Assembly (NCBI RefSeq): GCF_023634025.1
Contig: NZ_JALJCW010000007.1
Coordinates: forward strand, 1-63,094
From: Hanstruepera flava
GTDB taxonomy: Bacteria; Bacteroidota; Bacteroidia; Flavobacteriales; Flavobacteriaceae
DNA: 63,094 bases
Direction: 5' to 3'
Part shown: one piece after another, positions 41,989 through 60,602 of the stretch
Position numbering within the stretch: position 1 is the stretch's first letter
Layout of the letters: every line of letters starts with the position of its first letter
Translations under genes and position numbers: made by a program
The notes under the pieces: generated by a model
What the model was told of the DNA's origin: nothing
The model's input: only the letters and a program-made list of their open reading frames with translations
Databases searched by the model: none

Positions 41989-42039
41989 TATATCCTTTTG
42001 CGTATTGCCCCATATAATGAAGGAAAAAATATAAGTGTC

Positions 42040-45000
42040 ATGAAAAAACCTGCTTATTTCAAAAATAGTTTAGCTATTCTAATCTTCTTGATTGGCTTCA
42101 CTGGTTTTGCTCAAACTTATCAACCTTGGTCGGTAAGAGAAAATGTAGAAGTTAAAGGAAGCATGCTTGTTATTGGTAATAATATTCTTGGTCAGGATAA
42201 TTTACCATGTAATGACAATGGTATTGATAATGATGATGTTACGATGCAGTATATTGATATTGATAGTGATGCTTCAACATTTAGTTCAAGTAGTGCCGAT
42301 CTTGTTTTTCAACCTCATGAGGATGGTACACCAACAACATGTTATTCCGTTGCTTATGCAGCATTGTATTGGGGAGCCGTTCTGCAAGATGGTGATCGTT
42401 CCAATATAACAAATGTTAAATTTAAGACTCCTGGAAGCAGTGTATATACAGATATCAATGGAACGTTGATATATGATGCCATTGTAAACCCTATTGTTTC
42501 AGAAGCTGGAGAACCGGGCAATACACCTTATGCATGTTATGCTGAAGTAACAGATATACTAAATGCATTAACAACTGTAGAAGGAACATATTCAGTAGCA
42601 AATGTTGTATCTAGTGAAGGAACTAATTTTTCTACAGGACTATCAGCAGGATGGACATTATTTGTTATATATGAAGATCCTGATTTACATACAAAATCAT
42701 TTACAACATTTGATGGGTTCAGCCATATCTATGACGACCATTACGAAGAAGTCCCTGTAACAGGATTTACAACACCTCCTGCAGGCCATATCGATTTACA
42801 ATTTGCTTATGCTACTTTAGATGGCGATAAAACCAAAAGAGCTACAAAATTAGAAATCAACAACAAAGAGGTAACAACACCTTTCAGATCTGCAAATAAA
42901 TTCTTTGGATCAATAATTGAAAATTATAATGGCATTGCGCACCCTAGAAATCCGTTTGGAACTAATACTCTAGGTTATGATACAGGTATGTTGGAAATAT
43001 TTAATTCAGAACCTGAATATATTGTAAACGGAGCAACAGACGCTTCTTTTACACTTCAGGTAGCACGTGGACAAGCCGATCCTATTTTCGCCTTCTTTAG
43101 CGCTTTTGCAGTTGATGTTATTTCTCCAGAAGTTACACTCGTTAAAACTGTTCAAGACGAATTCGGAAACGATATTAATGGAGACGACGTAATATTAGGC
43201 CAAAACATATTTTACGAAATAAGCTACCAAAACACCGGCAATGAGGATATTACTAATTTTACTATAACTGATATATTACCTGATAACATTGTATTTGATC
43301 CAGCTAGTATTGACTATACAAATTCAGGAGGAGCCACTCTACTTTCTTACGATCCAATTACAAGAACTGTTGTTTTTAGTATTCCAGATGATTCTGTAGA
43401 ATTTGGAGACCCTGTTTTTGTTATACGTATCCCTGTACAGATAGTTCCTAACTGCTATGATTTAAGTCAAGCATGTTCAAATGAAATATTGAATCAAGCT
43501 TTTGGAACTTATACGGGAGCATTAAGTGGAATTACAGTTGAAGATCAAGCAAGTTATGTTGAACTTGAATGTTTTATAGATCCCCAACCTACTAATTTTT
43601 TGGTAGACATATCTAGCTGTAACTTCGAACGTGAAGAAATACTTTGTGGCGACAGTGTTACAATTACAGCTGCTGATGGTTACGATAGCTACTCTTGGTC
43701 TACAAGCCCAACGGGAACTCCGGTTATAGGTACTGGCCAATCATATACAGCTACTGAAGTAGGAACATATTATGTTACCAATACAGCGTCAGCTACCTGT
43801 ATCTCTATTCAAGAAGTAATAACTGTTTCTTTGTATGGTACAACACAAACTAACCCTGTAATTCCATTTGCAGATGTTGTTTCTATTTGCCCTAATGACG
43901 GTAAAGAACTTCCAAAAATATTTCTATGTGGAGCCAACGATGTTAGAGACATAATTACTGGAATTAGTGATGCAACTTCAATCATTTGGGAACAACTGGA
44001 CGAGTCTAGCTGTCCTCCTATCGGAATTGATGACTGTGCTAATGAAAATTCTGCCTGCACCTGGAACCAGGTTGGATCAGGACCAAATTACACTGCCAAT
44101 ACATCTGGACAATTTAGAATTGTAATTAATTATCCTGGAGGCTGTTTCAGTATATTTTATTTTAACGTCTACCAAAACCTTCTTAACCCAACTGCAGTAG
44201 CACAAGACATTATTTGTGATACAACAGGAAGCATAACAGTTAATGGAGTTCCCAGCGGTTATGAATACAGTATAGATGGCATTAATTACCAATCCAGTAA
44301 TGTTTTCACTGTTACATCTCAAGGATATTATGTAATATATATTCAACAAGTAGGTGTTGATACAAATCCATGTGTTTTTGAAACACCTGCTGTATTCGTA
44401 AGGGAGCGTGACTTTACGGTTACAACTAATGTTACTCAACCAGATTGTTATGGTGGTTTCGGTAGTATTAGTATTGCAGTTAACGACGCCTTACCACAAT
44501 ACTACTTTAGTATCTACCAAGGTGGTGCTTTAGTGAATAGTGTTGGGCCAGTAATGAATAGTGATCATACATTTTCATCATTAAATGCTGGTAATTACAC
44601 TATAAATGTAAGTACCGACGATGGCTGTTTTTACACCGAGGACATAGTAATAATAGAGCCACCGTTGCTGACAGTGACCGCAGCGGTCACCATACCGCTT
44701 ACCTGCGACGATGGCCAGATTACCATATACCCAGAGGGAGGTACTCCGCCCTACTTCTATTTCATAAACAGTACAACAGATTTCCAGACCTACCCTGAAG
44801 TAGTAGTTACAAGTCCTGGTGTGTATGATATTACCGTTGTGGATAGCAACAACTGTAGTGCCAGCACCACCATAACCGTTGACCAGATTCCAGCCCCTGA
44901 ATTCACCGTCGATGCCACCAATATCGATTGTGCCGGATCCAACGACGGGACCATTACCGTTAACGTTACCAATGCCAATGGCAATAATTTAGAGTTCAGC

Positions 45001-48000
45001 ATTGATGGCGGTACGACATTCGTTAACTCCAATGTGTTTACCGGATTGGCCCCAGGCACGTATGATGTTGTGGTCCAGTATTCTGTTGGTGCTTCCGTTT
45101 GTCTGACAGACCCACAGCCCATTACCATTACAACGGCTACGGCCATTTCTGGTACGGCAACCTTAAGTGCCGACTATACCTGTAATTCAGGTGGCAGCAT
45201 TACCGTTACCGGTGTGACCGGTGGAACTCCACCTTATGCTTACAGTATTGATGGTGTAACGTTTCAGGTCAGTGATACCTTTACGGGATTGACAGCAGGA
45301 ACCTATACCATTACCATACTGGACGCCAATAGCTGTACGGCCATAACCAATACCATTACCATAGATCCTTTAAATCCCCCTACGGATTTAACGTTCAACA
45401 ACACACCGTTAAGCTGTCCGGCAAATACCACCACAATTACCATAACAGGAACTACAGGTGGTGATGGTCTACTGGAATACCAGATCATCGCTCCTGCGTC
45501 GGCAGCCACACCGTACCAAACATCCAATACCTTTTCTGGTTTGGGCCCAGACACCTACACCTTCCAGGTTCGTGATGAAAACGATTGTGTGTATTCAGAA
45601 TCCTATACCATAGATCCTTTACCTGTGCTTTCATTGAACACGGTCCTGACCGAAGACTTGGATTGTACTGCAACGCCTGATGCCGTAATTACGGGAACGT
45701 TCTCTGGTGGAGTGGCCCCCTTTACATTTGCCGTTTCCATTGATGGGGCTCCTTATGTCAATTTAGGACCTACAAGTTCACCTTTTACATATACAACATC
45801 CACCCCTGGAACCTACCAGTTCCAAGTTACCGATGCCAATAACTGTACCGCAGAGTCAGGAACACATACCATAAACCCAATCGTTCCCCCTGCTTTAAGC
45901 GCTGTAGTGCAGACACAGCCTATATTATGTAACGGTGATGCCAATGGTGCCATTGACATTACTATTGATAATACTGTTGGAACACCACCTTTTACAATTA
46001 ATGTAAATAACGATACAACTGGCACGAACTACGGAACACAAACCTCTGGTCTTCCTGCTGGCACCTATACCATTACAATTACCGATGCTAAATCGTGTAC
46101 TGCCACAGAAACCATAGTCATTGCTGAACCAGATCCTATTATTGTTAATTACCATACGGTAGATATTACCTGTACTGCTGGTGGTATCTCCCAAGGTTCC
46201 ATTATTATTGATGGTGTAACCGGTGGTACTGCCCCTTACAACTATTTTGTTACGGGAACTAATGGTTACAACAACTCCGAACTAAATGCCACGGGATCAA
46301 CATCGGTGAGCTTTGATGTCGTTGACTTTGGACTATATCAAATAAACGTTGTTGATGCCAATGGTTGTTCTGTACTCATTCAAGATGTATTGGTAGCCTC
46401 ACCTCCTACTGATTTAGACATCAATATCTCAACATCTGTAGATTGTGCAACAGGTGGTACGGCTATTGTAAGTGTTGGTACAACATTAAGTAGTGCTGGA
46501 CCATTTTTCTTTAGTATTTACCAAGGTCCAATTTCTGTTTATCCCAATCCTCCAGGATCTTGGATCCCAGAAGATTCTCCTGGTAGTGAAACAGCTACGT
46601 TTACCGGTTTAACACCTGGCGTATCTTACACTTTTATAGTTTATGATGCCTCTACTAACTGTAGTTACTATGAACCTGCCACCGCTCCTATTCCTACCAA
46701 CTCAACACTGACTGTCGATGCGGTTGGTTCAAATAACATTACATGTACAGGAAGTGCCGACGGAAACGTTTCATTTACCGTAAACAGTATTTATGGTGTT
46801 GGCACAACCGTTAGTTACGAGATATTTGATTCGTTGACATTGGCTTCTACCGGTGTTACCGGATCTGGAAACGTACCTGCCGGTGGTTCGCTGTCCGTAA
46901 CCAATTTGGGACCATTGCCATTTGGTAATTACTATGTGCTGATTACTGAAACTTCTGGACCAAATGCAGGGTGTGGTATTGTAACAGCTCCTTTTAATAT
47001 AACAGAATCGGCCATTCCGTTAAGTCTAACAACCAGCATAGATCAGAATGCCAATTGTAATGCTAGTTCTGGTATTATTAGTGCTATCGGCCATGATGGT
47101 ACGCCTCCATACCAGTACCAGGTAACCACAACTCCTGGATCGCCTGTAGCAACAGACCCTTCATGGGCTTCTGCTAGCTCTTTTAACCTCGATGCAGGAA
47201 ACTATTATGTCCATGTAATTGATGCTTATGGTTGTGTGGTGTCCAGCCCTATAGTAATATTGCCCATGGACCCAGCTCCTGTTGTCGCTGCTACCGTTAA
47301 CAACCAATGTCTGACCGTAGATGGTAATTTCGAGATTGATGTGACCTTAACAACTACAGGAATTGCTCCTTATAGTTATAGTATAAATGGCGGTGCATTC
47401 CAAACTATGACAGCGCCTTTTACCATTTCAAACTTATTTTCTGGAACACACACTATTGAAGTTAATGATGCCAATGGATGTGGTAATTTAGTGTCCGTTA
47501 CCATTGAACCTATCCTGGACATAACACCAAACGTAACGGCCTTGCCAACTTGTAATGACAACGATGGTGAGATTACCGTTTCTGGAAATGGTGGCTCTGG
47601 AAACTATGCCTATACCATTAGCCCAAACCCAGCTTCCATAAGCTTGGCAGGCAATGTGTTCTCGGGAGTGCCTTCCGGATTGTATACAATAACTATTACC
47701 GATACGGTTACTGGATGCACCAAAGATGTAAGCGTATCCTTGGCTCCCGCTACGCCTCCTACGTTTACCCTAACGCCTACTGCCCTGACCTGTTTTGGGG
47801 ACAATACAGGTTCATTTGAGTTATTTGTCAATGGATACTCTGGAACTTATAATTATGAAGTTTTTGATAGTTCTGGTACATCAGTTACCGGTTCTGTAGC
47901 AGCAAATACAACAACAAACCCAATAGTGGTAACTGGTTTAACTTCTGGAAGCTACTCGGTAACCCTAACGGAAACACAAACCCCTTTCTGTTCTGCCTAT

Positions 48001-50265
48001 GGAACGCTTGTCATTGCATCGCCTTCTGAAGCTTTGGACGTTGTTGCCAACGAAACTTCAAATGTTAGTTGCGACAACAATATAGGGACCATCACGGCTA
48101 TTGCTTCTGGTGGCTGGGGACAGTACGAATATGAATTGACCGGTGCCGCTACCGTGGCTTATTCGCCTAACGGAACATTTACCAACCTTTCAGCAGGTAC
48201 TTATACCGTTAACGTTAGGGATGCCTCTGGTTGTATAGCTTCTGATACGGTAACATTAACGGAGCCTACTCCTATAACTGCGACTTTTACGCCCAATACA
48301 ACACAGTTGTCATGTTTTGGAGATCAAAATGCCACTATAACCGTAACCAATGTTACCGGTGGACAAGGGGCTAACTATACATATACCTTAAATACCATAT
48401 TGCCTACGCCAAGTTCGTCAGGTCCACAAACATCAAATGTGTTTAGCGATTTGGGGGCAGGAACCTATTCGGTTACAATTAACGATGGCTACAATTGTAC
48501 GATGACCTCGGTCGATATCGTGATTGCACAGCCTACTGCCATACAAGCCAATTTGGTTGTACAGACTACGCAAACTTGTCTAAACCAAACAACATTAACA
48601 TTAAGTGCCACAGGTGGAACAGGTCCATATACTTATAGTGATGACAGTTCGTTCGCTACAGTTTTGGGTTCATTTACATCATCAACAACTTTCCCTGTTC
48701 CTGTGGGCACTTATTCTTTTTACGTTAGGGATAACAATGGCTGTGTCGCTAATGTTTCCAATGAAATAACAATAGATCCATTACCTACTTTAGATATAAT
48801 CTTGGATTCTGTTAACCCAACTATTAATTGTGCTGGTGATAACACAGGGTCGATTACGGCCACAGCCCAAGGTGGTCTGGGCAACTATATTTACACCTTA
48901 CAGGATACTGCTGGAAATACAATTCCGGCAACTCAAAACAGTCCTGGTATATTTACCGAACTAGTTGCAGGTACTTATGTGGTTTATGTTGAAAGTGGCG
49001 ATTGTAATGCTACTTCTGCTACAATTACTATAACAGAACCTTCATCTGTACTTGATGCCACGTTCAACGTTACCAACGTAACCTGTAGTGGCTCTAACAA
49101 TGGTGTTCTTGAAATTACTGCTTCAGGTGGTACAGGTATAATAAAATACGCCATATCACCGCAATTGGACCAATTCTTTGACACCAATATTTTTGAAAAT
49201 CTGGCACCAGGTAATTACGATGTCATTGTTCAAGATGAATTGGGATGTTATATCATCCATAATTTTGATATTGTTGAGCCAGCACCTGTTATTTTGAGCA
49301 TTGTGGCAAACTCTATCATACCGGAAGTCTGCGATGGTGACCTCAATGCCGAGTTCAGTATTGATATCTCTGGAGGAACACTACCTTATAGTGTGAGTCT
49401 AGACAGCTATGATGGCCCGTATTCTACCGGTGCTTCAAATCAAACACAATTTGACTTTACGGGTTTAAATGGTGGTGACCATACGGTATTTGTAAGGGAT
49501 AGCCAAGGCTGTGAATCAGAATGGAATATCACATTACCGGAATCTGTTGCCATTAACCCAACGGTGGTTGTTGAATACAACTGTTTAAACAACATGCCTG
49601 GTAATACCGTGACTGTATTGGTTGATGATAGCCTAAATCCAGATGATTTGGACTACTCCCTAAATGGAGGACCTTACCAAACAAGTAATGTCTTTACCAA
49701 TGTTCCGGCTGGAACCGACCACTTTATTGATGTTAGGCATACCAATGGTTGTGTACAGTCTACCGAATTTTTCTCAATAGATACTGTTGAACCTTTAACC
49801 TTGGTCTTAAATGAAGGGGAAATAAATGAGTTCATTGCCGTGGCCTCTGGCGGTACTGGCGATTATGAGTTTACACTCAATGGTGAAAACCAGGGCAGCA
49901 ACAATACCTTTGTCATCTCTGAAACAGGAACCTATGTCGTGGTCGTGACCGATAGCAGTGGATGTACGGCTACAGCATCCATTTTCTTGGAGTACGTGGA
50001 TATTTGCATCCCTAACTACTTCACCCCGAATGGTGATGGTGTAACAGATACCTGGGCTCCTGGATGTGTGACGGGATACCCTAACCTACAGTTCTCCATC
50101 TTTGACCGTTATGGACGTAAGATCGTAACGCTGAATGTCGGGGAAAAATGGGACGGTAAATATGGTGGCAAGGATTTGCCCACCGGTGATTATTGGTACG
50201 TCGTGAACCTGAACAGCTCGAACGACAACCGCGATTTTGTCGGAAACTTTACCCTATATAGATAA
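42040..50265 (+). CDS. sprB: SprB-like giant cell-surface adhesin, copy 1
   Basis: A 2741-aa secreted adhesin. Signal peptide MKKPAYFKNSLAILIFLIGFTGFAQ. The head (about 40-360) has a beta-rich domain beginning ENVEVKGSMLVIGNNILGQDN. A DUF11-like module follows (about 370-470: NIFYEISYQNTGNEDITNFTITDILPDNIVFDP). Residues about 500-2640 carry about 22 SprB repeats of the form GTPPYxYSIDGxxF...GLxxGTYTVxVxDxNGC. The last about 86 residues are a type B sorting domain (CIPNYFTPNGDGVTDTWAPGC...VGNFTLYR) for type IX export. The ATG at 42040 begins the signal peptide; an upstream TTG at 41998 is not used. From 44689 (residue about 884) the DNA is apparently identical to copy 2. In F. johnsoniae SprB is the mobile gliding adhesin and is longer (about 6500 aa). 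Confidence 0.88.
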   Translation: MKKPAYFKNSLAILIFLIGFTGFAQTYQPWSVRENVEVKGSMLVIGNNILGQDNLPCNDNGIDNDDVTMQYIDIDSDASTFSSSSADLVFQPHEDGTPTTCYSVAYAALYWGAVLQDGDRSNITNVKFKTPGSSVYTDINGTLIYDAIVNPIVSEAGEPGNTPYACYAEVTDILNALTTVEGTYSVANVVSSEGTNFSTGLSAGWTLFVIYEDPDLHTKSFTTFDGFSHIYDDHYEEVPVTGFTTPPAGHIDLQFAYATLDGDKTKRATKLEINNKEVTTPFRSANKFFGSIIENYNGIAHPRNPFGTNTLGYDTGMLEIFNSEPEYIVNGATDASFTLQVARGQADPIFAFFSAFAVDVISPEVTLVKTVQDEFGNDINGDDVILGQNIFYEISYQNTGNEDITNFTITDILPDNIVFDPASIDYTNSGGATLLSYDPITRTVVFSIPDDSVEFGDPVFVIRIPVQIVPNCYDLSQACSNEILNQAFGTYTGALSGITVEDQASYVELECFIDPQPTNFLVDISSCNFEREEILCGDSVTITAADGYDSYSWSTSPTGTPVIGTGQSYTATEVGTYYVTNTASATCISIQEVITVSLYGTTQTNPVIPFADVVSICPNDGKELPKIFLCGANDVRDIITGISDATSIIWEQLDESSCPPIGIDDCANENSACTWNQVGSGPNYTANTSGQFRIVINYPGGCFSIFYFNVYQNLLNPTAVAQDIICDTTGSITVNGVPSGYEYSIDGINYQSSNVFTVTSQGYYVIYIQQVGVDTNPCVFETPAVFVRERDFTVTTNVTQPDCYGGFGSISIAVNDALPQYYFSIYQGGALVNSVGPVMNSDHTFSSLNAGNYTINVSTDDGCFYTEDIVIIEPPLLTVTAAVTIPLTCDDGQITIYPEGGTPPYFYFINSTTDFQTYPEVVVTSPGVYDITVVDSNNCSASTTITVDQIPAPEFTVDATNIDCAGSNDGTITVNVTNANGNNLEFSIDGGTTFVNSNVFTGLAPGTYDVVVQYSVGASVCLTDPQPITITTATAISGTATLSADYTCNSGGSITVTGVTGGTPPYAYSIDGVTFQVSDTFTGLTAGTYTITILDANSCTAITNTITIDPLNPPTDLTFNNTPLSCPANTTTITITGTTGGDGLLEYQIIAPASAATPYQTSNTFSGLGPDTYTFQVRDENDCVYSESYTIDPLPVLSLNTVLTEDLDCTATPDAVITGTFSGGVAPFTFAVSIDGAPYVNLGPTSSPFTYTTSTPGTYQFQVTDANNCTAESGTHTINPIVPPALSAVVQTQPILCNGDANGAIDITIDNTVGTPPFTINVNNDTTGTNYGTQTSGLPAGTYTITITDAKSCTATETIVIAEPDPIIVNYHTVDITCTAGGISQGSIIIDGVTGGTAPYNYFVTGTNGYNNSELNATGSTSVSFDVVDFGLYQINVVDANGCSVLIQDVLVASPPTDLDINISTSVDCATGGTAIVSVGTTLSSAGPFFFSIYQGPISVYPNPPGSWIPEDSPGSETATFTGLTPGVSYTFIVYDASTNCSYYEPATAPIPTNSTLTVDAVGSNNITCTGSADGNVSFTVNSIYGVGTTVSYEIFDSLTLASTGVTGSGNVPAGGSLSVTNLGPLPFGNYYVLITETSGPNAGCGIVTAPFNITESAIPLSLTTSIDQNANCNASSGIISAIGHDGTPPYQYQVTTTPGSPVATDPSWASASSFNLDAGNYYVHVIDAYGCVVSSPIVILPMDPAPVVAATVNNQCLTVDGNFEIDVTLTTTGIAPYSYSINGGAFQTMTAPFTISNLFSGTHTIEVNDANGCGNLVSVTIEPILDITPNVTALPTCNDNDGEITVSGNGGSGNYAYTISPNPASISLAGNVFSGVPSGLYTITITDTVTGCTKDVSVSLAPATPPTFTLTPTALTCFGDNTGSFELFVNGYSGTYNYEVFDSSGTSVTGSVAANTTTNPIVVTGLTSGSYSVTLTETQTPFCSAYGTLVIASPSEALDVVANETSNVSCDNNIGTITAIASGGWGQYEYELTGAATVAYSPNGTFTNLSAGTYTVNVRDASGCIASDTVTLTEPTPITATFTPNTTQLSCFGDQNATITVTNVTGGQGANYTYTLNTILPTPSSSGPQTSNVFSDLGAGTYSVTINDGYNCTMTSVDIVIAQPTAIQANLVVQTTQTCLNQTTLTLSATGGTGPYTYSDDSSFATVLGSFTSSTTFPVPVGTYSFYVRDNNGCVANVSNEITIDPLPTLDIILDSVNPTINCAGDNTGSITATAQGGLGNYIYTLQDTAGNTIPATQNSPGIFTELVAGTYVVYVESGDCNATSATITITEPSSVLDATFNVTNVTCSGSNNGVLEITASGGTGIIKYAISPQLDQFFDTNIFENLAPGNYDVIVQDELGCYIIHNFDIVEPAPVILSIVANSIIPEVCDGDLNAEFSIDISGGTLPYSVSLDSYDGPYSTGASNQTQFDFTGLNGGDHTVFVRDSQGCESEWNITLPESVAINPTVVVEYNCLNNMPGNTVTVLVDDSLNPDDLDYSLNGGPYQTSNVFTNVPAGTDHFIDVRHTNGCVQSTEFFSIDTVEPLTLVLNEGEINEFIAVASGGTGDYEFTLNGENQGSNNTFVISETGTYVVVVTDSSGCTATASIFLEYVDICIPNYFTPNGDGVTDTWAPGCVTGYPNLQFSIFDRYGRKIVTLNVGEKWDGKYGGKDLPTGDYWYVVNLNSSNDNRDFVGNFTLYR

Positions 50266-51159
50266 TGCCAGAGCCCTTAACTTAACTAAAACTGATGTCA
50301 TGAAAAAATTAATCATATATATCCTGCTCATTACCTCTGGTTATGGCTTTGCACAAGAGCTGAACCTACCGGTATGGACACAATACCTGGCCGACAATAA
50401 CTTTGTACTCTCTCCTACTTTTGCAGGTATTGGCGATAATGTTAGAATTAGAATAAATGGACTTACGCAATGGGTAGGTATCAAGGATGCACCGGACAAC
50501 CAATCATTATATGTAGATGGAAGGATATCAAACCGCTCTGGGGTTGGATTATCACTCTATAACGATAGAAACGGGAATACTCGCCAACAGGGTATCAAGG
50601 CATCATTCTCACATCACCTAATTTTAGATTATACCTCCAGACAATACCTTTCATTTGGTATCTCTTACAACTTGAACAGTTTTAGGGTAGATGTGGAAAA
50701 TTTTGAACCAACATATGATATCCCAATCATTGACCCCAATATCAACGGAGACCGAGCCATTTCTAACAACAATTTTGATTTAGGGGTACTCTATAGGAAC
50801 AAGGGCTTCTACTTCAGCTTTAACGTTAACAATATTTTGGATAAAGAGATTGACAACTTTACCGGTATTGAGCCAAGCTTGCTACGCAACTACCAAATTT
50901 ATTCCGGTTACATTATGCAGAGTAAGTCCAACAAGCGCGTGGAGTTCGAACCTTCGATATTCTATCAGCTCTTCAGCAGCGACAACAGATCGAGTACAGA
51001 CTTGAACTTTAAGTACAGAAAATACAACAGGAACGAGGACTATTACTGGATAGGCGTGTCATACAGGTTCCTGAACGACCAGTTCTTCAACCCACTGAAC
51101 ATCGGGCCTATGGCCGGTATCATGAAATCAAAGTTCTACTTTGCCTACTCATACCAGAT
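44689..51159 (+). repeat. Large direct repeat, copy 1 (6471 bp)
   Basis: This block matches 54020-60490 at an offset of 9331 bp. I found no difference on reading it, and the proteins, even those read in shadow frames, are the same. It covers the last about 1858 residues of SprB and most of SprF. The edges are sharp: 7 synonymous differences in the 48 nt just left of it, and 5 substitutions in the last about 112 bp of sprF just right of it. Confidence 0.9.
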
Positions 51160-51271
51160 CACAATAAACGAACTTGCAGGATATAACTCCGGCACACACA
51201 TGATCACAATTGGGTTCGACTTCCTTCAGGGTATTAGTGATTGCCCATGTACGGAAGGTAGATATCATTAA
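50300..51271 (+). CDS. sprF: SprF-like PorP/SprF family outer-membrane protein, copy 1
   Basis: A 323-aa outer-membrane barrel of the PorP/SprF family. Signal peptide MKKLIIYILLITSGYGFAQ. It continues ELNLPVWTQYLADNNFVLSPTFAGIGDNVRIRINGLTQWVGIKDAPDNQSLYVDG, which is the typical start of SprF, and ends with barrel strands (AYSYQITINELAGYNSGTHMITIGFDF). SprF helps its partner SprB reach the surface through the type IX system. The start at 50300 gives the signal peptide. The longer frame into sprB is not used. It lies 34 nt after sprB copy 1. It differs from copy 2 only near its C-terminal end (for example NEL versus NDL). Confidence 0.9.
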   Translation: MKKLIIYILLITSGYGFAQELNLPVWTQYLADNNFVLSPTFAGIGDNVRIRINGLTQWVGIKDAPDNQSLYVDGRISNRSGVGLSLYNDRNGNTRQQGIKASFSHHLILDYTSRQYLSFGISYNLNSFRVDVENFEPTYDIPIIDPNINGDRAISNNNFDLGVLYRNKGFYFSFNVNNILDKEIDNFTGIEPSLLRNYQIYSGYIMQSKSNKRVEFEPSIFYQLFSSDNRSSTDLNFKYRKYNRNEDYYWIGVSYRFLNDQFFNPLNIGPMAGIMKSKFYFAYSYQITINELAGYNSGTHMITIGFDFLQGISDCPCTEGRYH

Positions 51272-51338
51272 TAATATAACAATAAAAACATTAAATAATT
51301 TAAAAATCGTGTAATGTAGTATAAATGTCTTGAAAATA

Positions 51339-51346
51339 TAAATTTG
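51339..51346 (+). promoter_or_regulatory. Candidate -7 box for the second sprB-sprF unit
   Basis: TAAATTTG matches TAnnTTTG in the 126-nt gap between sprF copy 1 and sprB copy 2, 52 nt before the second sprB ATG. If active, the second unit could be expressed on its own. The -33 region is weak. Confidence 0.35.
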
Positions 51347-51397
51347 CTATTTTTCTATTTTATGGCTCCTACAGAAACAAAATAACTCTTTAGAACC

Positions 51398-54300
51398 ATG
51401 AAAAAACCTACTTTTTCAAAAATTGCTGTAATAGCTTTGTTTTTTATCGTTTGCTTACAATCGTTTGCACAAAACTACGTCCCTTTTACGCCAAGGTTTA
51501 ATGACGATTTGAGAGGTGATATAGTTTTAATTGGTAACAATATTTTAGGGCCAGATAATAATGCCTTCAACGATAACAACACCTACAATCATAATGTTGA
51601 TATGCAGTATATTGATATTGATGGAGACGCAAGTACATTTAGTTCTTCAAGTGCAGATTTAGAAATTCCAAATCCAAATTGTTACAAAATTAGGTACGCA
51701 GGATTATATTGGGGCGCTGTAACAAATGGCAATGAACCTATTACCGAAGTTAAATTCAAAGGGCCAACGGGAGGATATAATGACATTACAGGAACAGTTA
51801 TTTATGAAGCAAATGGAACTGCAACAGGAAGTAGTTATCCATATTCCTGTTATGCTGATGTTACTTCAATTGTAACAAATTTAGGGACAGATTTAGGGAC
51901 CTATACAGTTGCCAACGTATCCAGTGCATTAGGAGAAACTGCAACATTTGACCCTTATAATGGAACTGGATTTTCTGCTGGATGGTCATTATTTATTGTT
52001 TATGAAGATCCTACACTACCAGGAAAATCTATAACAAGTTTTGATGGTTTTAGTGCCATAAGTAGTTCTGTAAATGTTGAAATTCCTGTTTCTGGTTTTA
52101 GAACTGTACCAGCACCAGCACCAGTTAGAGCAAATTTTGCGTTCGCGACTTTAGAAGGAGATAAACCTATACAAAACGACAGGTTGGTACTTAACAACGT
52201 TCCTTTATCTGCAGCAGATAGACCTGCAAACAACTTTTTCAATAGTTCGGTTACCAGACTAGATGCTACACCTGTTACAAATAGAAATCCAAACAGTACC
52301 AACACCCTTGGTTTTGATACTGGTGTAATGGTAGTACCCAATCCAGGTAATACAGTAATAGTTAACGATGCCACATCAGCTATTGTTAGATTGGAAAGTG
52401 ATCAGGATGTTTACTTTCAATATTTTTTCGCATTTGCTGTAGACATTATTGAACCAAACATTGTACTTACAAAAATAGTTGAAGACGATGCTGGAAATGA
52501 CATTGGTGGTCAAGGAATTGGTCTTGGACAACCGTTAAATTATGTCATTGGTTTTCAAAATACAGGAAACGATAATGCTACGAATTTTCAAATTAGAGAC
52601 ATATTACCAATTAACATAATCTTTAATTACCCAACAGATTTAGTTTTACCTCCAGGAGTAACCGTAGCAAGTTACGATCCTGTTACACGAGAAATTATAT
52701 TCAATATCGAAGATTATTTGGTTGAAGAAAACGACCCTGTTTATGAAATTAGAATTGAAGCTATGACAGTAGAAAACTGTAATCAATTAGCCGATTCATG
52801 TTCAAATATCATTCTTAATCAAGCTTTTGCAACGTATAATGGATATTATAACCCTAATTATCAAATTACCGACGATCCTAGTTACGACAGTAACACTGGC
52901 TGTTTAATTACACCTCAGGCAACCAATTTTTTAATAAATATTGATTGTGATTTTTCTGAAGATATCACGCTTTGTGGCGATAGTGTTACATTAACAGCAG
53001 CAAATGGCTACGATAGCTACTCTTGGTCTACAAGCCCAACGGGAACACCTGTTATTGGTACAGGGCAATCGTATACGGCAACTGCAACAGGCACGTATTA
53101 TTCCTTTAATAATGCTTTAGCTCCCTGTCAATCCATAGTTCAACAATACAATGTTTCCCTTTTTGGAGGAAACAACCTGACAAATCCCGTGATACCTTTT
53201 GCTGATCAGGTGGTTACCTGCCCAAATGATGGAAAATTATTGCCAAATATATTTTTATGTGGTGCAAACGATTTTAGAGACATTACCACCAATATAGCTG
53301 GGGCCTTATCAATTATTTGGGAACAACTGGATGAGTCAAGCTGTGCTCCTGTTACGGATCCAGATTGTGCCAATGAAAACACAGCCTGCACCTGGAACCA
53401 AATTGCAACAGGACCAAACTATACCGCCAATACATCTGGACAGTTCAGAATAACCATAAATTTTGAAGGTGGATGTTTTGCGCAATTTTATTTCAACGTC
53501 TATCAAAATGTCTTAAATCCAACTGTTACTGCAACAGATATTATATGTACAACCCCAGGATCTATAACTGTTAACAATGTGCCTAATGGTTATGAATATA
53601 GTTTAGATGGAATAACTTACCAAGCCAGTAATGTATTTTCAGTTACAACTCCTGGTACTTACACGGTATATATTAGACAAGTTGGCGTTTCTACAAACCC
53701 ATGCGTGTTTACGGTTCCTGATGTGCAAATTAGAGAACGTGACTTTACCGTTTCAACCATAATAACGCAACCTTTATGCCATGGCGATTTAGGATCCATA
53801 CACGTGGCAGCAAATGATGTGGACCCACAATATTTCTTTGCGCTTTATATTGGGGCTACTTTAGTAAATAGCGTTGGACCAATTATGGAAAATAATTACA
53901 CCTTCGCAAACCTTAATCCTGGAACATATACAGCAATAATCGAAACTGAAGATGGTTGCTACCATTCTGAAGATATTACTATAATAGAGCCGCCATTATT
54001 AACAGTAACCGCAGCGGTTACCATACCGCTTACCTGCGACGATGGCCAGATTACCATATACCCAGAGGGAGGTACTCCGCCCTACTTCTATTTCATAAAC
54101 AGTACAACAGATTTCCAGACCTACCCTGAAGTAGTAGTTACAAGTCCTGGTGTGTATGATATTACCGTTGTGGATAGCAACAACTGTAGTGCCAGCACCA
54201 CCATAACCGTTGACCAGATTCCAGCCCCTGAATTCACCGTCGATGCCACCAATATCGATTGTGCCGGATCCAACGACGGGACCATTACCGTTAACGTTAC

Positions 54301-57300
54301 CAATGCCAATGGCAATAATTTAGAGTTCAGCATTGATGGCGGTACGACATTCGTTAACTCCAATGTGTTTACCGGATTGGCCCCAGGCACGTATGATGTT
54401 GTGGTCCAGTATTCTGTTGGTGCTTCCGTTTGTCTGACAGACCCACAGCCCATTACCATTACAACGGCTACGGCCATTTCTGGTACGGCAACCTTAAGTG
54501 CCGACTATACCTGTAATTCAGGTGGCAGCATTACCGTTACCGGTGTGACCGGTGGAACTCCACCTTATGCTTACAGTATTGATGGTGTAACGTTTCAGGT
54601 CAGTGATACCTTTACGGGATTGACAGCAGGAACCTATACCATTACCATACTGGACGCCAATAGCTGTACGGCCATAACCAATACCATTACCATAGATCCT
54701 TTAAATCCCCCTACGGATTTAACGTTCAACAACACACCGTTAAGCTGTCCGGCAAATACCACCACAATTACCATAACAGGAACTACAGGTGGTGATGGTC
54801 TACTGGAATACCAGATCATCGCTCCTGCGTCGGCAGCCACACCGTACCAAACATCCAATACCTTTTCTGGTTTGGGCCCAGACACCTACACCTTCCAGGT
54901 TCGTGATGAAAACGATTGTGTGTATTCAGAATCCTATACCATAGATCCTTTACCTGTGCTTTCATTGAACACGGTCCTGACCGAAGACTTGGATTGTACT
55001 GCAACGCCTGATGCCGTAATTACGGGAACGTTCTCTGGTGGAGTGGCCCCCTTTACATTTGCCGTTTCCATTGATGGGGCTCCTTATGTCAATTTAGGAC
55101 CTACAAGTTCACCTTTTACATATACAACATCCACCCCTGGAACCTACCAGTTCCAAGTTACCGATGCCAATAACTGTACCGCAGAGTCAGGAACACATAC
55201 CATAAACCCAATCGTTCCCCCTGCTTTAAGCGCTGTAGTGCAGACACAGCCTATATTATGTAACGGTGATGCCAATGGTGCCATTGACATTACTATTGAT
55301 AATACTGTTGGAACACCACCTTTTACAATTAATGTAAATAACGATACAACTGGCACGAACTACGGAACACAAACCTCTGGTCTTCCTGCTGGCACCTATA
55401 CCATTACAATTACCGATGCTAAATCGTGTACTGCCACAGAAACCATAGTCATTGCTGAACCAGATCCTATTATTGTTAATTACCATACGGTAGATATTAC
55501 CTGTACTGCTGGTGGTATCTCCCAAGGTTCCATTATTATTGATGGTGTAACCGGTGGTACTGCCCCTTACAACTATTTTGTTACGGGAACTAATGGTTAC
55601 AACAACTCCGAACTAAATGCCACGGGATCAACATCGGTGAGCTTTGATGTCGTTGACTTTGGACTATATCAAATAAACGTTGTTGATGCCAATGGTTGTT
55701 CTGTACTCATTCAAGATGTATTGGTAGCCTCACCTCCTACTGATTTAGACATCAATATCTCAACATCTGTAGATTGTGCAACAGGTGGTACGGCTATTGT
55801 AAGTGTTGGTACAACATTAAGTAGTGCTGGACCATTTTTCTTTAGTATTTACCAAGGTCCAATTTCTGTTTATCCCAATCCTCCAGGATCTTGGATCCCA
55901 GAAGATTCTCCTGGTAGTGAAACAGCTACGTTTACCGGTTTAACACCTGGCGTATCTTACACTTTTATAGTTTATGATGCCTCTACTAACTGTAGTTACT
56001 ATGAACCTGCCACCGCTCCTATTCCTACCAACTCAACACTGACTGTCGATGCGGTTGGTTCAAATAACATTACATGTACAGGAAGTGCCGACGGAAACGT
56101 TTCATTTACCGTAAACAGTATTTATGGTGTTGGCACAACCGTTAGTTACGAGATATTTGATTCGTTGACATTGGCTTCTACCGGTGTTACCGGATCTGGA
56201 AACGTACCTGCCGGTGGTTCGCTGTCCGTAACCAATTTGGGACCATTGCCATTTGGTAATTACTATGTGCTGATTACTGAAACTTCTGGACCAAATGCAG
56301 GGTGTGGTATTGTAACAGCTCCTTTTAATATAACAGAATCGGCCATTCCGTTAAGTCTAACAACCAGCATAGATCAGAATGCCAATTGTAATGCTAGTTC
56401 TGGTATTATTAGTGCTATCGGCCATGATGGTACGCCTCCATACCAGTACCAGGTAACCACAACTCCTGGATCGCCTGTAGCAACAGACCCTTCATGGGCT
56501 TCTGCTAGCTCTTTTAACCTCGATGCAGGAAACTATTATGTCCATGTAATTGATGCTTATGGTTGTGTGGTGTCCAGCCCTATAGTAATATTGCCCATGG
56601 ACCCAGCTCCTGTTGTCGCTGCTACCGTTAACAACCAATGTCTGACCGTAGATGGTAATTTCGAGATTGATGTGACCTTAACAACTACAGGAATTGCTCC
56701 TTATAGTTATAGTATAAATGGCGGTGCATTCCAAACTATGACAGCGCCTTTTACCATTTCAAACTTATTTTCTGGAACACACACTATTGAAGTTAATGAT
56801 GCCAATGGATGTGGTAATTTAGTGTCCGTTACCATTGAACCTATCCTGGACATAACACCAAACGTAACGGCCTTGCCAACTTGTAATGACAACGATGGTG
56901 AGATTACCGTTTCTGGAAATGGTGGCTCTGGAAACTATGCCTATACCATTAGCCCAAACCCAGCTTCCATAAGCTTGGCAGGCAATGTGTTCTCGGGAGT
57001 GCCTTCCGGATTGTATACAATAACTATTACCGATACGGTTACTGGATGCACCAAAGATGTAAGCGTATCCTTGGCTCCCGCTACGCCTCCTACGTTTACC
57101 CTAACGCCTACTGCCCTGACCTGTTTTGGGGACAATACAGGTTCATTTGAGTTATTTGTCAATGGATACTCTGGAACTTATAATTATGAAGTTTTTGATA
57201 GTTCTGGTACATCAGTTACCGGTTCTGTAGCAGCAAATACAACAACAAACCCAATAGTGGTAACTGGTTTAACTTCTGGAAGCTACTCGGTAACCCTAAC

Positions 57301-59596
57301 GGAAACACAAACCCCTTTCTGTTCTGCCTATGGAACGCTTGTCATTGCATCGCCTTCTGAAGCTTTGGACGTTGTTGCCAACGAAACTTCAAATGTTAGT
57401 TGCGACAACAATATAGGGACCATCACGGCTATTGCTTCTGGTGGCTGGGGACAGTACGAATATGAATTGACCGGTGCCGCTACCGTGGCTTATTCGCCTA
57501 ACGGAACATTTACCAACCTTTCAGCAGGTACTTATACCGTTAACGTTAGGGATGCCTCTGGTTGTATAGCTTCTGATACGGTAACATTAACGGAGCCTAC
57601 TCCTATAACTGCGACTTTTACGCCCAATACAACACAGTTGTCATGTTTTGGAGATCAAAATGCCACTATAACCGTAACCAATGTTACCGGTGGACAAGGG
57701 GCTAACTATACATATACCTTAAATACCATATTGCCTACGCCAAGTTCGTCAGGTCCACAAACATCAAATGTGTTTAGCGATTTGGGGGCAGGAACCTATT
57801 CGGTTACAATTAACGATGGCTACAATTGTACGATGACCTCGGTCGATATCGTGATTGCACAGCCTACTGCCATACAAGCCAATTTGGTTGTACAGACTAC
57901 GCAAACTTGTCTAAACCAAACAACATTAACATTAAGTGCCACAGGTGGAACAGGTCCATATACTTATAGTGATGACAGTTCGTTCGCTACAGTTTTGGGT
58001 TCATTTACATCATCAACAACTTTCCCTGTTCCTGTGGGCACTTATTCTTTTTACGTTAGGGATAACAATGGCTGTGTCGCTAATGTTTCCAATGAAATAA
58101 CAATAGATCCATTACCTACTTTAGATATAATCTTGGATTCTGTTAACCCAACTATTAATTGTGCTGGTGATAACACAGGGTCGATTACGGCCACAGCCCA
58201 AGGTGGTCTGGGCAACTATATTTACACCTTACAGGATACTGCTGGAAATACAATTCCGGCAACTCAAAACAGTCCTGGTATATTTACCGAACTAGTTGCA
58301 GGTACTTATGTGGTTTATGTTGAAAGTGGCGATTGTAATGCTACTTCTGCTACAATTACTATAACAGAACCTTCATCTGTACTTGATGCCACGTTCAACG
58401 TTACCAACGTAACCTGTAGTGGCTCTAACAATGGTGTTCTTGAAATTACTGCTTCAGGTGGTACAGGTATAATAAAATACGCCATATCACCGCAATTGGA
58501 CCAATTCTTTGACACCAATATTTTTGAAAATCTGGCACCAGGTAATTACGATGTCATTGTTCAAGATGAATTGGGATGTTATATCATCCATAATTTTGAT
58601 ATTGTTGAGCCAGCACCTGTTATTTTGAGCATTGTGGCAAACTCTATCATACCGGAAGTCTGCGATGGTGACCTCAATGCCGAGTTCAGTATTGATATCT
58701 CTGGAGGAACACTACCTTATAGTGTGAGTCTAGACAGCTATGATGGCCCGTATTCTACCGGTGCTTCAAATCAAACACAATTTGACTTTACGGGTTTAAA
58801 TGGTGGTGACCATACGGTATTTGTAAGGGATAGCCAAGGCTGTGAATCAGAATGGAATATCACATTACCGGAATCTGTTGCCATTAACCCAACGGTGGTT
58901 GTTGAATACAACTGTTTAAACAACATGCCTGGTAATACCGTGACTGTATTGGTTGATGATAGCCTAAATCCAGATGATTTGGACTACTCCCTAAATGGAG
59001 GACCTTACCAAACAAGTAATGTCTTTACCAATGTTCCGGCTGGAACCGACCACTTTATTGATGTTAGGCATACCAATGGTTGTGTACAGTCTACCGAATT
59101 TTTCTCAATAGATACTGTTGAACCTTTAACCTTGGTCTTAAATGAAGGGGAAATAAATGAGTTCATTGCCGTGGCCTCTGGCGGTACTGGCGATTATGAG
59201 TTTACACTCAATGGTGAAAACCAGGGCAGCAACAATACCTTTGTCATCTCTGAAACAGGAACCTATGTCGTGGTCGTGACCGATAGCAGTGGATGTACGG
59301 CTACAGCATCCATTTTCTTGGAGTACGTGGATATTTGCATCCCTAACTACTTCACCCCGAATGGTGATGGTGTAACAGATACCTGGGCTCCTGGATGTGT
59401 GACGGGATACCCTAACCTACAGTTCTCCATCTTTGACCGTTATGGACGTAAGATCGTAACGCTGAATGTCGGGGAAAAATGGGACGGTAAATATGGTGGC
59501 AAGGATTTGCCCACCGGTGATTATTGGTACGTCGTGAACCTGAACAGCTCGAACGACAACCGCGATTTTGTCGGAAACTTTACCCTATATAGATAA
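51398..59596 (+). CDS. sprB: SprB-like giant cell-surface adhesin, copy 2
   Basis: A 2732-aa paralogue of copy 1. Signal peptide MKKPTFSKIAVIALFFIVCLQSFAQ. The head (about 30-350) has the same fold pattern (DIVLIGNNILGPDNNAFNDNNTYNHNVDMQYIDIDGDASTFSSSSADL) but diverges in sequence from copy 1. A DUF11-like module follows (GQPLNYVIGFQNTGNDNATNFQIRDILPINII). From residue about 875 to the end it is identical to copy 1, including the SprB repeats and type B sorting domain. This makes two adhesins with different heads on the same stalk and export signal. Whether the heads bind different targets is inference. It is exported by the type IX system, presumably with the SprF-like partner encoded next. 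Confidence 0.88.
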   Translation: MKKPTFSKIAVIALFFIVCLQSFAQNYVPFTPRFNDDLRGDIVLIGNNILGPDNNAFNDNNTYNHNVDMQYIDIDGDASTFSSSSADLEIPNPNCYKIRYAGLYWGAVTNGNEPITEVKFKGPTGGYNDITGTVIYEANGTATGSSYPYSCYADVTSIVTNLGTDLGTYTVANVSSALGETATFDPYNGTGFSAGWSLFIVYEDPTLPGKSITSFDGFSAISSSVNVEIPVSGFRTVPAPAPVRANFAFATLEGDKPIQNDRLVLNNVPLSAADRPANNFFNSSVTRLDATPVTNRNPNSTNTLGFDTGVMVVPNPGNTVIVNDATSAIVRLESDQDVYFQYFFAFAVDIIEPNIVLTKIVEDDAGNDIGGQGIGLGQPLNYVIGFQNTGNDNATNFQIRDILPINIIFNYPTDLVLPPGVTVASYDPVTREIIFNIEDYLVEENDPVYEIRIEAMTVENCNQLADSCSNIILNQAFATYNGYYNPNYQITDDPSYDSNTGCLITPQATNFLINIDCDFSEDITLCGDSVTLTAANGYDSYSWSTSPTGTPVIGTGQSYTATATGTYYSFNNALAPCQSIVQQYNVSLFGGNNLTNPVIPFADQVVTCPNDGKLLPNIFLCGANDFRDITTNIAGALSIIWEQLDESSCAPVTDPDCANENTACTWNQIATGPNYTANTSGQFRITINFEGGCFAQFYFNVYQNVLNPTVTATDIICTTPGSITVNNVPNGYEYSLDGITYQASNVFSVTTPGTYTVYIRQVGVSTNPCVFTVPDVQIRERDFTVSTIITQPLCHGDLGSIHVAANDVDPQYFFALYIGATLVNSVGPIMENNYTFANLNPGTYTAIIETEDGCYHSEDITIIEPPLLTVTAAVTIPLTCDDGQITIYPEGGTPPYFYFINSTTDFQTYPEVVVTSPGVYDITVVDSNNCSASTTITVDQIPAPEFTVDATNIDCAGSNDGTITVNVTNANGNNLEFSIDGGTTFVNSNVFTGLAPGTYDVVVQYSVGASVCLTDPQPITITTATAISGTATLSADYTCNSGGSITVTGVTGGTPPYAYSIDGVTFQVSDTFTGLTAGTYTITILDANSCTAITNTITIDPLNPPTDLTFNNTPLSCPANTTTITITGTTGGDGLLEYQIIAPASAATPYQTSNTFSGLGPDTYTFQVRDENDCVYSESYTIDPLPVLSLNTVLTEDLDCTATPDAVITGTFSGGVAPFTFAVSIDGAPYVNLGPTSSPFTYTTSTPGTYQFQVTDANNCTAESGTHTINPIVPPALSAVVQTQPILCNGDANGAIDITIDNTVGTPPFTINVNNDTTGTNYGTQTSGLPAGTYTITITDAKSCTATETIVIAEPDPIIVNYHTVDITCTAGGISQGSIIIDGVTGGTAPYNYFVTGTNGYNNSELNATGSTSVSFDVVDFGLYQINVVDANGCSVLIQDVLVASPPTDLDINISTSVDCATGGTAIVSVGTTLSSAGPFFFSIYQGPISVYPNPPGSWIPEDSPGSETATFTGLTPGVSYTFIVYDASTNCSYYEPATAPIPTNSTLTVDAVGSNNITCTGSADGNVSFTVNSIYGVGTTVSYEIFDSLTLASTGVTGSGNVPAGGSLSVTNLGPLPFGNYYVLITETSGPNAGCGIVTAPFNITESAIPLSLTTSIDQNANCNASSGIISAIGHDGTPPYQYQVTTTPGSPVATDPSWASASSFNLDAGNYYVHVIDAYGCVVSSPIVILPMDPAPVVAATVNNQCLTVDGNFEIDVTLTTTGIAPYSYSINGGAFQTMTAPFTISNLFSGTHTIEVNDANGCGNLVSVTIEPILDITPNVTALPTCNDNDGEITVSGNGGSGNYAYTISPNPASISLAGNVFSGVPSGLYTITITDTVTGCTKDVSVSLAPATPPTFTLTPTALTCFGDNTGSFELFVNGYSGTYNYEVFDSSGTSVTGSVAANTTTNPIVVTGLTSGSYSVTLTETQTPFCSAYGTLVIASPSEALDVVANETSNVSCDNNIGTITAIASGGWGQYEYELTGAATVAYSPNGTFTNLSAGTYTVNVRDASGCIASDTVTLTEPTPITATFTPNTTQLSCFGDQNATITVTNVTGGQGANYTYTLNTILPTPSSSGPQTSNVFSDLGAGTYSVTINDGYNCTMTSVDIVIAQPTAIQANLVVQTTQTCLNQTTLTLSATGGTGPYTYSDDSSFATVLGSFTSSTTFPVPVGTYSFYVRDNNGCVANVSNEITIDPLPTLDIILDSVNPTINCAGDNTGSITATAQGGLGNYIYTLQDTAGNTIPATQNSPGIFTELVAGTYVVYVESGDCNATSATITITEPSSVLDATFNVTNVTCSGSNNGVLEITASGGTGIIKYAISPQLDQFFDTNIFENLAPGNYDVIVQDELGCYIIHNFDIVEPAPVILSIVANSIIPEVCDGDLNAEFSIDISGGTLPYSVSLDSYDGPYSTGASNQTQFDFTGLNGGDHTVFVRDSQGCESEWNITLPESVAINPTVVVEYNCLNNMPGNTVTVLVDDSLNPDDLDYSLNGGPYQTSNVFTNVPAGTDHFIDVRHTNGCVQSTEFFSIDTVEPLTLVLNEGEINEFIAVASGGTGDYEFTLNGENQGSNNTFVISETGTYVVVVTDSSGCTATASIFLEYVDICIPNYFTPNGDGVTDTWAPGCVTGYPNLQFSIFDRYGRKIVTLNVGEKWDGKYGGKDLPTGDYWYVVNLNSSNDNRDFVGNFTLYR

Positions 59597-60490
59597 TGCC
59601 AGAGCCCTTAACTTAACTAAAACTGATGTCATGAAAAAATTAATCATATATATCCTGCTCATTACCTCTGGTTATGGCTTTGCACAAGAGCTGAACCTAC
59701 CGGTATGGACACAATACCTGGCCGACAATAACTTTGTACTCTCTCCTACTTTTGCAGGTATTGGCGATAATGTTAGAATTAGAATAAATGGACTTACGCA
59801 ATGGGTAGGTATCAAGGATGCACCGGACAACCAATCATTATATGTAGATGGAAGGATATCAAACCGCTCTGGGGTTGGATTATCACTCTATAACGATAGA
59901 AACGGGAATACTCGCCAACAGGGTATCAAGGCATCATTCTCACATCACCTAATTTTAGATTATACCTCCAGACAATACCTTTCATTTGGTATCTCTTACA
60001 ACTTGAACAGTTTTAGGGTAGATGTGGAAAATTTTGAACCAACATATGATATCCCAATCATTGACCCCAATATCAACGGAGACCGAGCCATTTCTAACAA
60101 CAATTTTGATTTAGGGGTACTCTATAGGAACAAGGGCTTCTACTTCAGCTTTAACGTTAACAATATTTTGGATAAAGAGATTGACAACTTTACCGGTATT
60201 GAGCCAAGCTTGCTACGCAACTACCAAATTTATTCCGGTTACATTATGCAGAGTAAGTCCAACAAGCGCGTGGAGTTCGAACCTTCGATATTCTATCAGC
60301 TCTTCAGCAGCGACAACAGATCGAGTACAGACTTGAACTTTAAGTACAGAAAATACAACAGGAACGAGGACTATTACTGGATAGGCGTGTCATACAGGTT
60401 CCTGAACGACCAGTTCTTCAACCCACTGAACATCGGGCCTATGGCCGGTATCATGAAATCAAAGTTCTACTTTGCCTACTCATACCAGAT
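54020..60490 (+). repeat. Large direct repeat, copy 2 (6471 bp)
   Basis: The second copy of the block at 44689-51159. See that entry for boundaries. Copy 1 reads GCGGTCACC and copy 2 GCGGTTACC at the left edge (44688 C versus 54019 T). On the right, copy 1 reads CCAGATC and copy 2 CCAGATT (51160 C versus 60491 T). Confidence 0.9.
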
Positions 60491-60602
60491 TACAATAAAT
60501 GATCTTGCAGGATACAACTCCGGCACACACATGATCACAATTGGGTTCGACTTCCTTCAGGGTATTAGTGACTGCCCATGTACGGAAGGTAGATATCATT
60601 AA
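59631..60602 (+). CDS. sprF: SprF-like PorP/SprF family outer-membrane protein, copy 2
   Basis: A 323-aa outer-membrane barrel, nearly identical to copy 1. The differences lie in the last about 37 codons and include one visible amino-acid change (Glu to Asp in TINELAG/TINDLAG). It has the same signal peptide and start position relative to its sprB (34 nt after the stop). It should serve as secretion partner for the second SprB. Only one base separates its stop from the stop of the convergent sixA gene, and no hairpin terminator lies between them. Confidence 0.9.
   Translation: MKKLIIYILLITSGYGFAQELNLPVWTQYLADNNFVLSPTFAGIGDNVRIRINGLTQWVGIKDAPDNQSLYVDGRISNRSGVGLSLYNDRNGNTRQQGIKASFSHHLILDYTSRQYLSFGISYNLNSFRVDVENFEPTYDIPIIDPNINGDRAISNNNFDLGVLYRNKGFYFSFNVNNILDKEIDNFTGIEPSLLRNYQIYSGYIMQSKSNKRVEFEPSIFYQLFSSDNRSSTDLNFKYRKYNRNEDYYWIGVSYRFLNDQFFNPLNIGPMAGIMKSKFYFAYSYQITINDLAGYNSGTHMITIGFDFLQGISDCPCTEGRYH

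Follow-up and report, generated by a model that had tools for sequence, protein, structure and literature searches.

Different heads on a shared stalk: apparent concerted evolution of two tandem sprB-sprF units in Hanstruepera flava

Hanstruepera flava (Flavobacteriaceae) carries two giant adhesin genes side by side, each followed by its own putative shuttle gene. The front parts of the two adhesins are strongly diverged, whereas most of the remainder reads the same base for base. How can two neighbouring genes be so unlike at one end and identical over the rest? The window analysed here is the whole 63,094-bp contig, free of Ns, of the H. flava genome (3,094,910 bp, 23 contigs). The reading that we regard as very probable is that of an sprCDBF-type locus in which the sprB-sprF pair is doubled in tandem, where different tips are kept while recombination homogenises the stalks, and where tips are exchangeable by way of the stalk.

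From position 37974 onwards the gene order is CHU_C/Ig protein, PorP/SprF-family protein with a tail of 48-nt repeats, sprB-A, sprF-A, sprB-B and sprF-B (Table 1), the first of these heading an apparent sprCDBF-type gene set. The names sprC and sprD are given here from gene order only. The sprC-like protein has a weak type B sorting domain (NCBIfam TIGR04131, 29.4 bits, under the cut-off of 35); both SprB proteins score 83.9 bits with the same model. The start of sprB-A, picked by reading the translation, is likely the ATG at 42040, ahead of a signal-peptide-like stretch; the mechanical open reading frame begins at 41998.

Table 1. Coordinates of the features of the tandem sprB-sprF locus in the window
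Feature	Position	Strand	Evidence
sprC-like gene, Ig-like/CHU_C protein	37974..39434	+	Pfam CHU_C 7.8e-12
sprD-like gene, PorP/SprF-family barrel, 48-nt-repeat tail, 850 aa	39436..41988	+	PorP_SprF 1.6e-49; TIGR03519
sprB-A, giant adhesin with head A	42040..50265	+	SprB repeats 9.9e-56; CHU_C 3.7e-15; type B sorting domain
Head A, diverged from head B	42040..44640	+	Nucleotide comparison; head tree
Frayed left edge, copy 1	44641..44688	+	7 synonymous differences in 48 nt
Identical block, copy 1 (stalk, sorting domain, most of sprF)	44689..51159	+	Base comparison
sprF-A, predicted dedicated outer-membrane shuttle	50237..51271	+	PorP_SprF 3.1e-71; TIGR03519; translation
Frayed right edge, copy 1	51160..51271	+	5 differences from copy 2
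sprB-B, giant adhesin with head B	51398..59596	+	SprB repeats 8.9e-53; type B sorting domain
Head B	51398..53971	+	Nucleotide comparison; head tree
Identical block, copy 2	54020..60490	+	Base comparison
sprF-B	59568..60602	+	ORF; second PorP_SprF match on contig (genome search)

Each adhesin combines SprB repeats and a C-terminal sorting domain with a PorP/SprF gene directly downstream, as is characteristic of SprB-type adhesins and type B substrates of the type IX secretion system (T9SS). Both SprF copies end in a tail reading DCPCTEGRYH, by translation, which contains the Cys-X-Cys motif of a gliding SprB/SprF pair. The same motif in the C-terminal tail of Flavobacterium johnsoniae SprF links that protein to GldK (PMC12635249), and in the same species an overproduced SprB sorting-domain fusion was found to be secreted only when SprF was co-expressed (PMC12618676). 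The locus is like Flavobacterium sprCDBF in having a giant SprB-repeat protein with a type B sorting domain and a PorP/SprF gene directly after it, and its gene order resembles sprC-sprD-sprB-sprF (PMC5879114). It is unlike that locus in that sprB-sprF occurs twice, the two units having different head types but a homogenised stalk, a doubling not described in the available excerpts on the Flavobacterium genes. A TPS secretion domain or TpsB partner, as in two-partner adhesins of the HMW1/HMW2 type, found no Pfam match at E 0.001 in either SprB protein or in SprF-A. Among the sequences of solved structures, neither the head profile nor SprF had a match, and the sprD-like protein had only matches that look like low complexity. 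The genes would form one operon, with both adhesins presumably expressed.

Two further repeat regions lie in the window. The 48-nt-period family has 12 overlapping copies in the sprD-like gene, where the tandem repeats at 40357-41184 make up the tail; the stop-to-stop frame of this gene differs in length between relatives, from 790 to 893 aa, and the number of repeats in the tail probably varies with it. At 61597-63094 begins a further SprB/HYR-type repeat protein, truncated by the contig end, whose counterpart region in Hanstruepera marina has repeats with a period of about 237 nt.

How sharp is the boundary between the unlike and the identical parts? The first-pass annotation had described a block of 6471 bp shared by the two units at an offset of 9331 bp, and the base comparison bears this out, with no difference in 6471 of 6471 positions. 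The block is the maximal identical run between the units and covers about two thirds of sprB, together with sprF minus its last 112 bases. At the left edge the seven differences in 48 nt are all synonymous, as had been stated, and both copies encode IIEPPLLTVTAAVTIP. The count of five differences at the right edge, up to the sprF stop, also holds (51160, 51169, 51172, 51184 and 51241); the one at 51172 changes E to D, so that the changes on this side are not all silent. Absent from that annotation is what lies further out. Left of the frayed 48 nt the units are only about 54-74% identical in nucleotides over about 2.6 kb, a stretch that encodes the two heads of about 870 residues each, and beyond the sprF stop their sequences are unrelated. 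All 993 differences in 9239 aligned sites fall outside the single 6471-bp run, and with a bound on log10 P of -581 chance is excluded.

A comparison with H. marina places these events in time. In this species A and B again form a pair in that order, collinear with the pair of H. flava over 22.5 kb, and its own two copies are identical over 6617 bp. Between the species the stalks are 7-19% apart per 250 bp, against zero within each species in the identical tract. Head A differs between the two species by 6-16% and head B by 8-16% per 250 bp, whereas heads A and B within each genome are 23-49% apart. The heads are thus orthologous across species, and the duplication is older than the species split. 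Synonymous divergence (dS) between the species is 0.610 for head A, 0.668 for head B and 0.666 for the stalk. Between the two H. flava stalks dS is 0 over 1366 synonymous sites (95% bound below 0.0022), where about 605 synonymous differences would be expected had there been no exchange since the split. The latest exchange would, on these sequences, fall within about 0.3% of the interspecies distance (95% bound).

The tract edges are specific to each lineage. In window coordinates the flanking differences stand at 44635 and 51253 in H. marina and at 44688 and 51160 in H. flava, a shift that points to a separate exchange in each line and answers the earlier suggestion that edges be compared in relatives. 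The 48-nt left strip, frayed in H. flava, shows no difference between the H. marina copies, as expected of successive tracts that end at slightly different places. Paralogues within a genome that are closer than orthologues between species, from a duplication that precedes the split, are the mark of concerted evolution. The homogenisation is accordingly read, from sequence comparison, as concerted evolution by homologous exchange after the separation of H. flava and H. marina. Conversion or repeated homologous exchange, the account favoured in the first-pass annotation, is supported by stalks that are identical within species and 7-19% apart between them.

Is homogenisation peculiar to Hanstruepera? 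Among 397 family genomes searched, head A found matches at E 1e-180 or better in 114. A class A head is present in 29 of these, of which 13 also have a B-class head. Identical or near-identical stalks are resolved in three of the 13 A-B genomes: H. flava (G000), H. marina (G003) and G067, which we assign to Mangrovimonas. The last is a single contig of 3,823,913 bp, whose A and B units are spaced 9329 bp apart; its stalks match exactly in runs of 1778 and 3368 bp, which a single mismatch separates (1 difference in 5147 bp). In this genome (L177/L178) sprF follows unit A only, and homology between the units ends with sprB; unit B is followed by a 529-residue frame that is presumably a trehalase. 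In a further genus (G394) the stalk is a single contig of 6394 bp that has exact 140-bp overlaps with the ends of the A and B contigs; at its opposite end a further 140 bp match the beginning of the A contig. With overlaps at both ends, the order of the units reads B-stalk-A-stalk; B thus precedes A (L194-L196), the reverse of the order in Hanstruepera.

The remaining A-B genomes present lesser degrees of similarity. Along 4.2 kb the two stalks of M. xylaniphaga (G288) differ by 4.6%. G404 is an older mosaic, in which a tract that starts at the junction and is about 1.9 kb long differs by 0-11%, and similarity of this degree returns near the C-terminus. Contigs with head A and head B end in one exact common tail in G288 (127 bp), G334 (119 bp) and G253 (127 bp); in G253 and G334 most of the stalk before the 119-127 bp tail is diverged, which leaves these two no more than one shared stretch, the size of a k-mer. 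Such a tail was not found in G389 or G404, and both were dropped as cases of a collapsed repeat, G404 being the older mosaic instead. The first part of the stalk, searched in the genus of G067, matched in one of three genomes; G422 gave no match, nor did G288, though it has both heads, which fits a dropped repeat contig but proves nothing. Three of the 13 (G021, G234 and G272) have tandem A-B units with stalks about 70-75% identical where they align at all; in these, the units are about 4650-4700 residues long for A and about 2720-2760 for B. In G010 the A and B units lie on separate contigs. Five further tandem pairs that were inspected and have no class A head (G007, G076, G152, G172 and G366) are 70-76% identical where aligned and are not homogenised, with the exception of 1.1 kb at 85% in G366. 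Homogenisation is thus recurrent, not universal. In H. neustonica (G001) and in a MAG (G004), with head B as the only head found, head B stands directly after the PorP/SprF-family gene, where the window has the A unit between.

Do heads and stalks have the same history? Trees were made of 79 heads and 71 stalks from loci chosen to cover A, B and A-B genomes rather than as a random sample; the stalk tree is a quick one with no bootstrap. In the head tree, A (29) and B (50) lie on opposite sides of a fully supported branch, and one change of head type is sufficient. The stalk tree (23 A, 44 B and 4 unlabelled) cannot be explained with fewer than 13 head changes; starred branches force 12 of these, and three of the 13 stem from the identical pairs of G000, G003 and G067. 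Head labels shuffled on this tree give a mean of 19 changes, with 0-1 of 500 shuffles as low as observed. The label is therefore still clustered, and head exchange is not free. The B class is broad, with sub-classes 52-60% identical to the H. flava head B. One of these, in G172, G152 and G010 (L186, L188-L189 and L119), is 52-55% identical to head B and forms its own supported branch inside B, which implies more than two tip types.

A difference of head at a single locus is plainest in two sister species, G032 with head A and G281 with head B, which have the same neighbouring genes and about 88% identity upstream. Divergence between their heads is 37-49% in the first 1.65 kb and 23-37% thereafter, and their stalks differ by 5-15%. 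The presence of A alone in one congener and of B alone in another, at the same locus, suggests exchange of the tip there. A second candidate pair, G186 and G365, was set aside: the stalks are sisters, but the nucleotide match is confined to 3.2 kb of stalk and sprF, with 0.2 kb elsewhere, and no junction was drawn. Across the family, sprB frames are often near 2740, 3240 or 4620 residues with either head, and other lengths occur too; this suggests that stalk lengths are stepwise.

Where do heads join stalks? Six junctions fall within 360 bp, at window-equivalent positions 44632-44992: 44671 in H. flava, 44632 in H. marina, 44992 in G067, 44824 in G404, 44893 in G394 and 44803 for G032 versus G281, from thresholds set case by case, with a latitude of tens of bases (the exact H. 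flava edge is 44689). The junctions lie about where the regular SprB-type repeats begin, the first member of that repeat family being at 44815. Homology-dependent recombination is expected to end where similarity collapses in each pair, which accounts for the clustering, and the scatter speaks against a fixed site.

Could a site-specific system, with an invertase or integrase exchanging cassettes, nevertheless be at work? The six clustered junctions might suggest it, but they track the head/stalk boundary of the protein, and the edges vary by tens to hundreds of bases between lineages. The two copies point the same way; the region 39000-63094 contains no inverted repeat of at least 40 bp (exact seed 14), such as a shufflon or invertible adhesin would have; and no recombinase or transposase was found among the 15 window proteins scanned with Pfam (of 52 mechanical ORFs); such an exchange is barely tenable. 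Scarcely more credible is a simple, recent doubling of sprB-sprF after which one head was replaced by a foreign one. It does account for the same stalk with different heads in one genome, and a head difference at one locus does occur between the sister species G032 and G281. Both heads, their order and their spacing are common to H. marina, however, and interspecies dS is about the same for both heads as for the stalk, so that the pair predates the split, in line with the doubts about a recent duplication already voiced in the first-pass annotation; independent duplications with the same two heads would be needed in both species. Did the assembler, then, create the identity by putting one consensus in both places where the true stalks differ? 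The caution raised at the outset about assembly copying was apt, since the H. flava and H. marina genomes come from one study and were assembled with SOAPdenovo v1.05 from Illumina HiSeq 4000 paired ends only (PMC9355603), and the surviving differences sit only close to unique flanks. Copies older than the species split, however, should differ at about 44% of synonymous sites, too far to collapse. A divergent stalk contig left over from assembly was not seen: the genome has two stalk matches at E 1e-150 or below, and both are on this contig. The pattern recurs in the single-contig Mangrovimonas genome G067, for which the sequencing method is not given, and G394 keeps the stalk as an unresolved assembly fork. 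A pure artefact is thus unlikely, and we give it only a slight chance. A milder one, in which a few real SNPs between the H. flava copies were erased, is possible: with Illumina-only assemblies the exact zero is not certified, and a few true differences may have been lost. The lack of a 16S rRNA match in the genome might have signalled lost repeats, but this clue was dropped, as the same search was positive in only 9 of 14 control genomes and masking is possible.

A more serious contender is unequal crossing-over with re-duplication, to three units or to one and then regain, in place of non-crossover conversion. Direct tandem repeats permit it, an A-B pair whose stalks crossed over would be reduced to A, and single-head species are common (16 of the 29 class A genomes have no second head at E 1e-180). 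A plain cycle of this kind, however, would hardly restore the same A-B order and spacing in both Hanstruepera species over 22.5 collinear kb, and we hold it possible but improbable. It is a little more doubtful still that the stalks are held identical so as to serve as arms for recombination in tip switching, by which cells would loop out or regain head B, or shuffle heads, and so alter what the moving adhesin grips; this would be a system of phase variation or tip exchange that is based on a module of stalk, sorting signal and shuttle and operates in many Flavobacteriaceae genera.

In the preferred reading, homogenisation of stalks under different tips, each SprB would have a tip of its own, A or B, borne on a stalk that is rich in repeats and includes a type B sorting domain, and its SprF shuttle would come next. 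Recombination between homologous, directly repeated stalks, presumably of the RecA type and mostly conversion, would repeatedly overwrite one with the other. On the left, exchange would be limited by heads too unlike to take part, and on the right by the end of homology at the sprF stop; limits on both sides would give edges that fray and shift. Two tips would result, with stalk, sorting signal and shuttle shared and interchangeable. In the long run such recombination, at about the same junction, would move tips between units and species. Any benefit of homogenisation to the cell is conjectural; selection may favour it because each head stays matched to a working sorting signal and shuttle. 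Identical stalks might also constitute large arms for the loss or exchange of heads, where a crossover between stalks would leave A alone from an A-B order and B alone from a B-A order. Both single-head states, A alone and B alone, exist.

Are there comparable systems? Concerted evolution of paralogous surface proteins is a known kind of process. The Campylobacter flaA and flaB genes are tandem flagellin paralogues that recombine with each other; they differ from the present pair in encoding flagellins, which are not known to have such a head-and-stalk split. By analogy the nearest counterpart would be HMW1 and HMW2 of Haemophilus influenzae, exported by two-partner secretion, which is type Vb. 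These too are two large paralogous adhesins whose binding domains have diverged strongly (33.8% identity in strain 12); each has downstream export co-factors that can stand in for one another, and in some strains the binding domains are swapped between the loci (PMC4849778). They differ from the H. flava pair in that they use two-partner secretion, occupy two separate loci and are unrelated in sequence, whereas the H. flava genes are in tandem and belong to T9SS and gliding; and unlike for HMW1/HMW2, head exchange is traced here across genera. Among the open-access matches listed for SprB with gene conversion, concerted evolution, tandem paralogues, recombination or duplication there is no such report; in one SprB paper the term 'gene conversion' occurs, in the excerpts available, in the reference list only (PMC5714932). 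Concerted evolution of a head-stalk-shuttle arrangement in a gliding adhesin thus appears to be new.

What does the arrangement mean for these bacteria? In flavobacterial genomes assembled from short reads this locus can break or collapse, and counts of adhesins taken from them may be too low. Deletion or exchange events between identical stalks are predicted to be visible in long reads. The junction offers a natural boundary for domain experiments, and the contrast between head and stalk, as far as sequence can indicate, points to the head as the binding part. In this gliding adhesin the stalk, sorting signal and shuttle would be treated as interchangeable hardware, and the head as an exchangeable tool.
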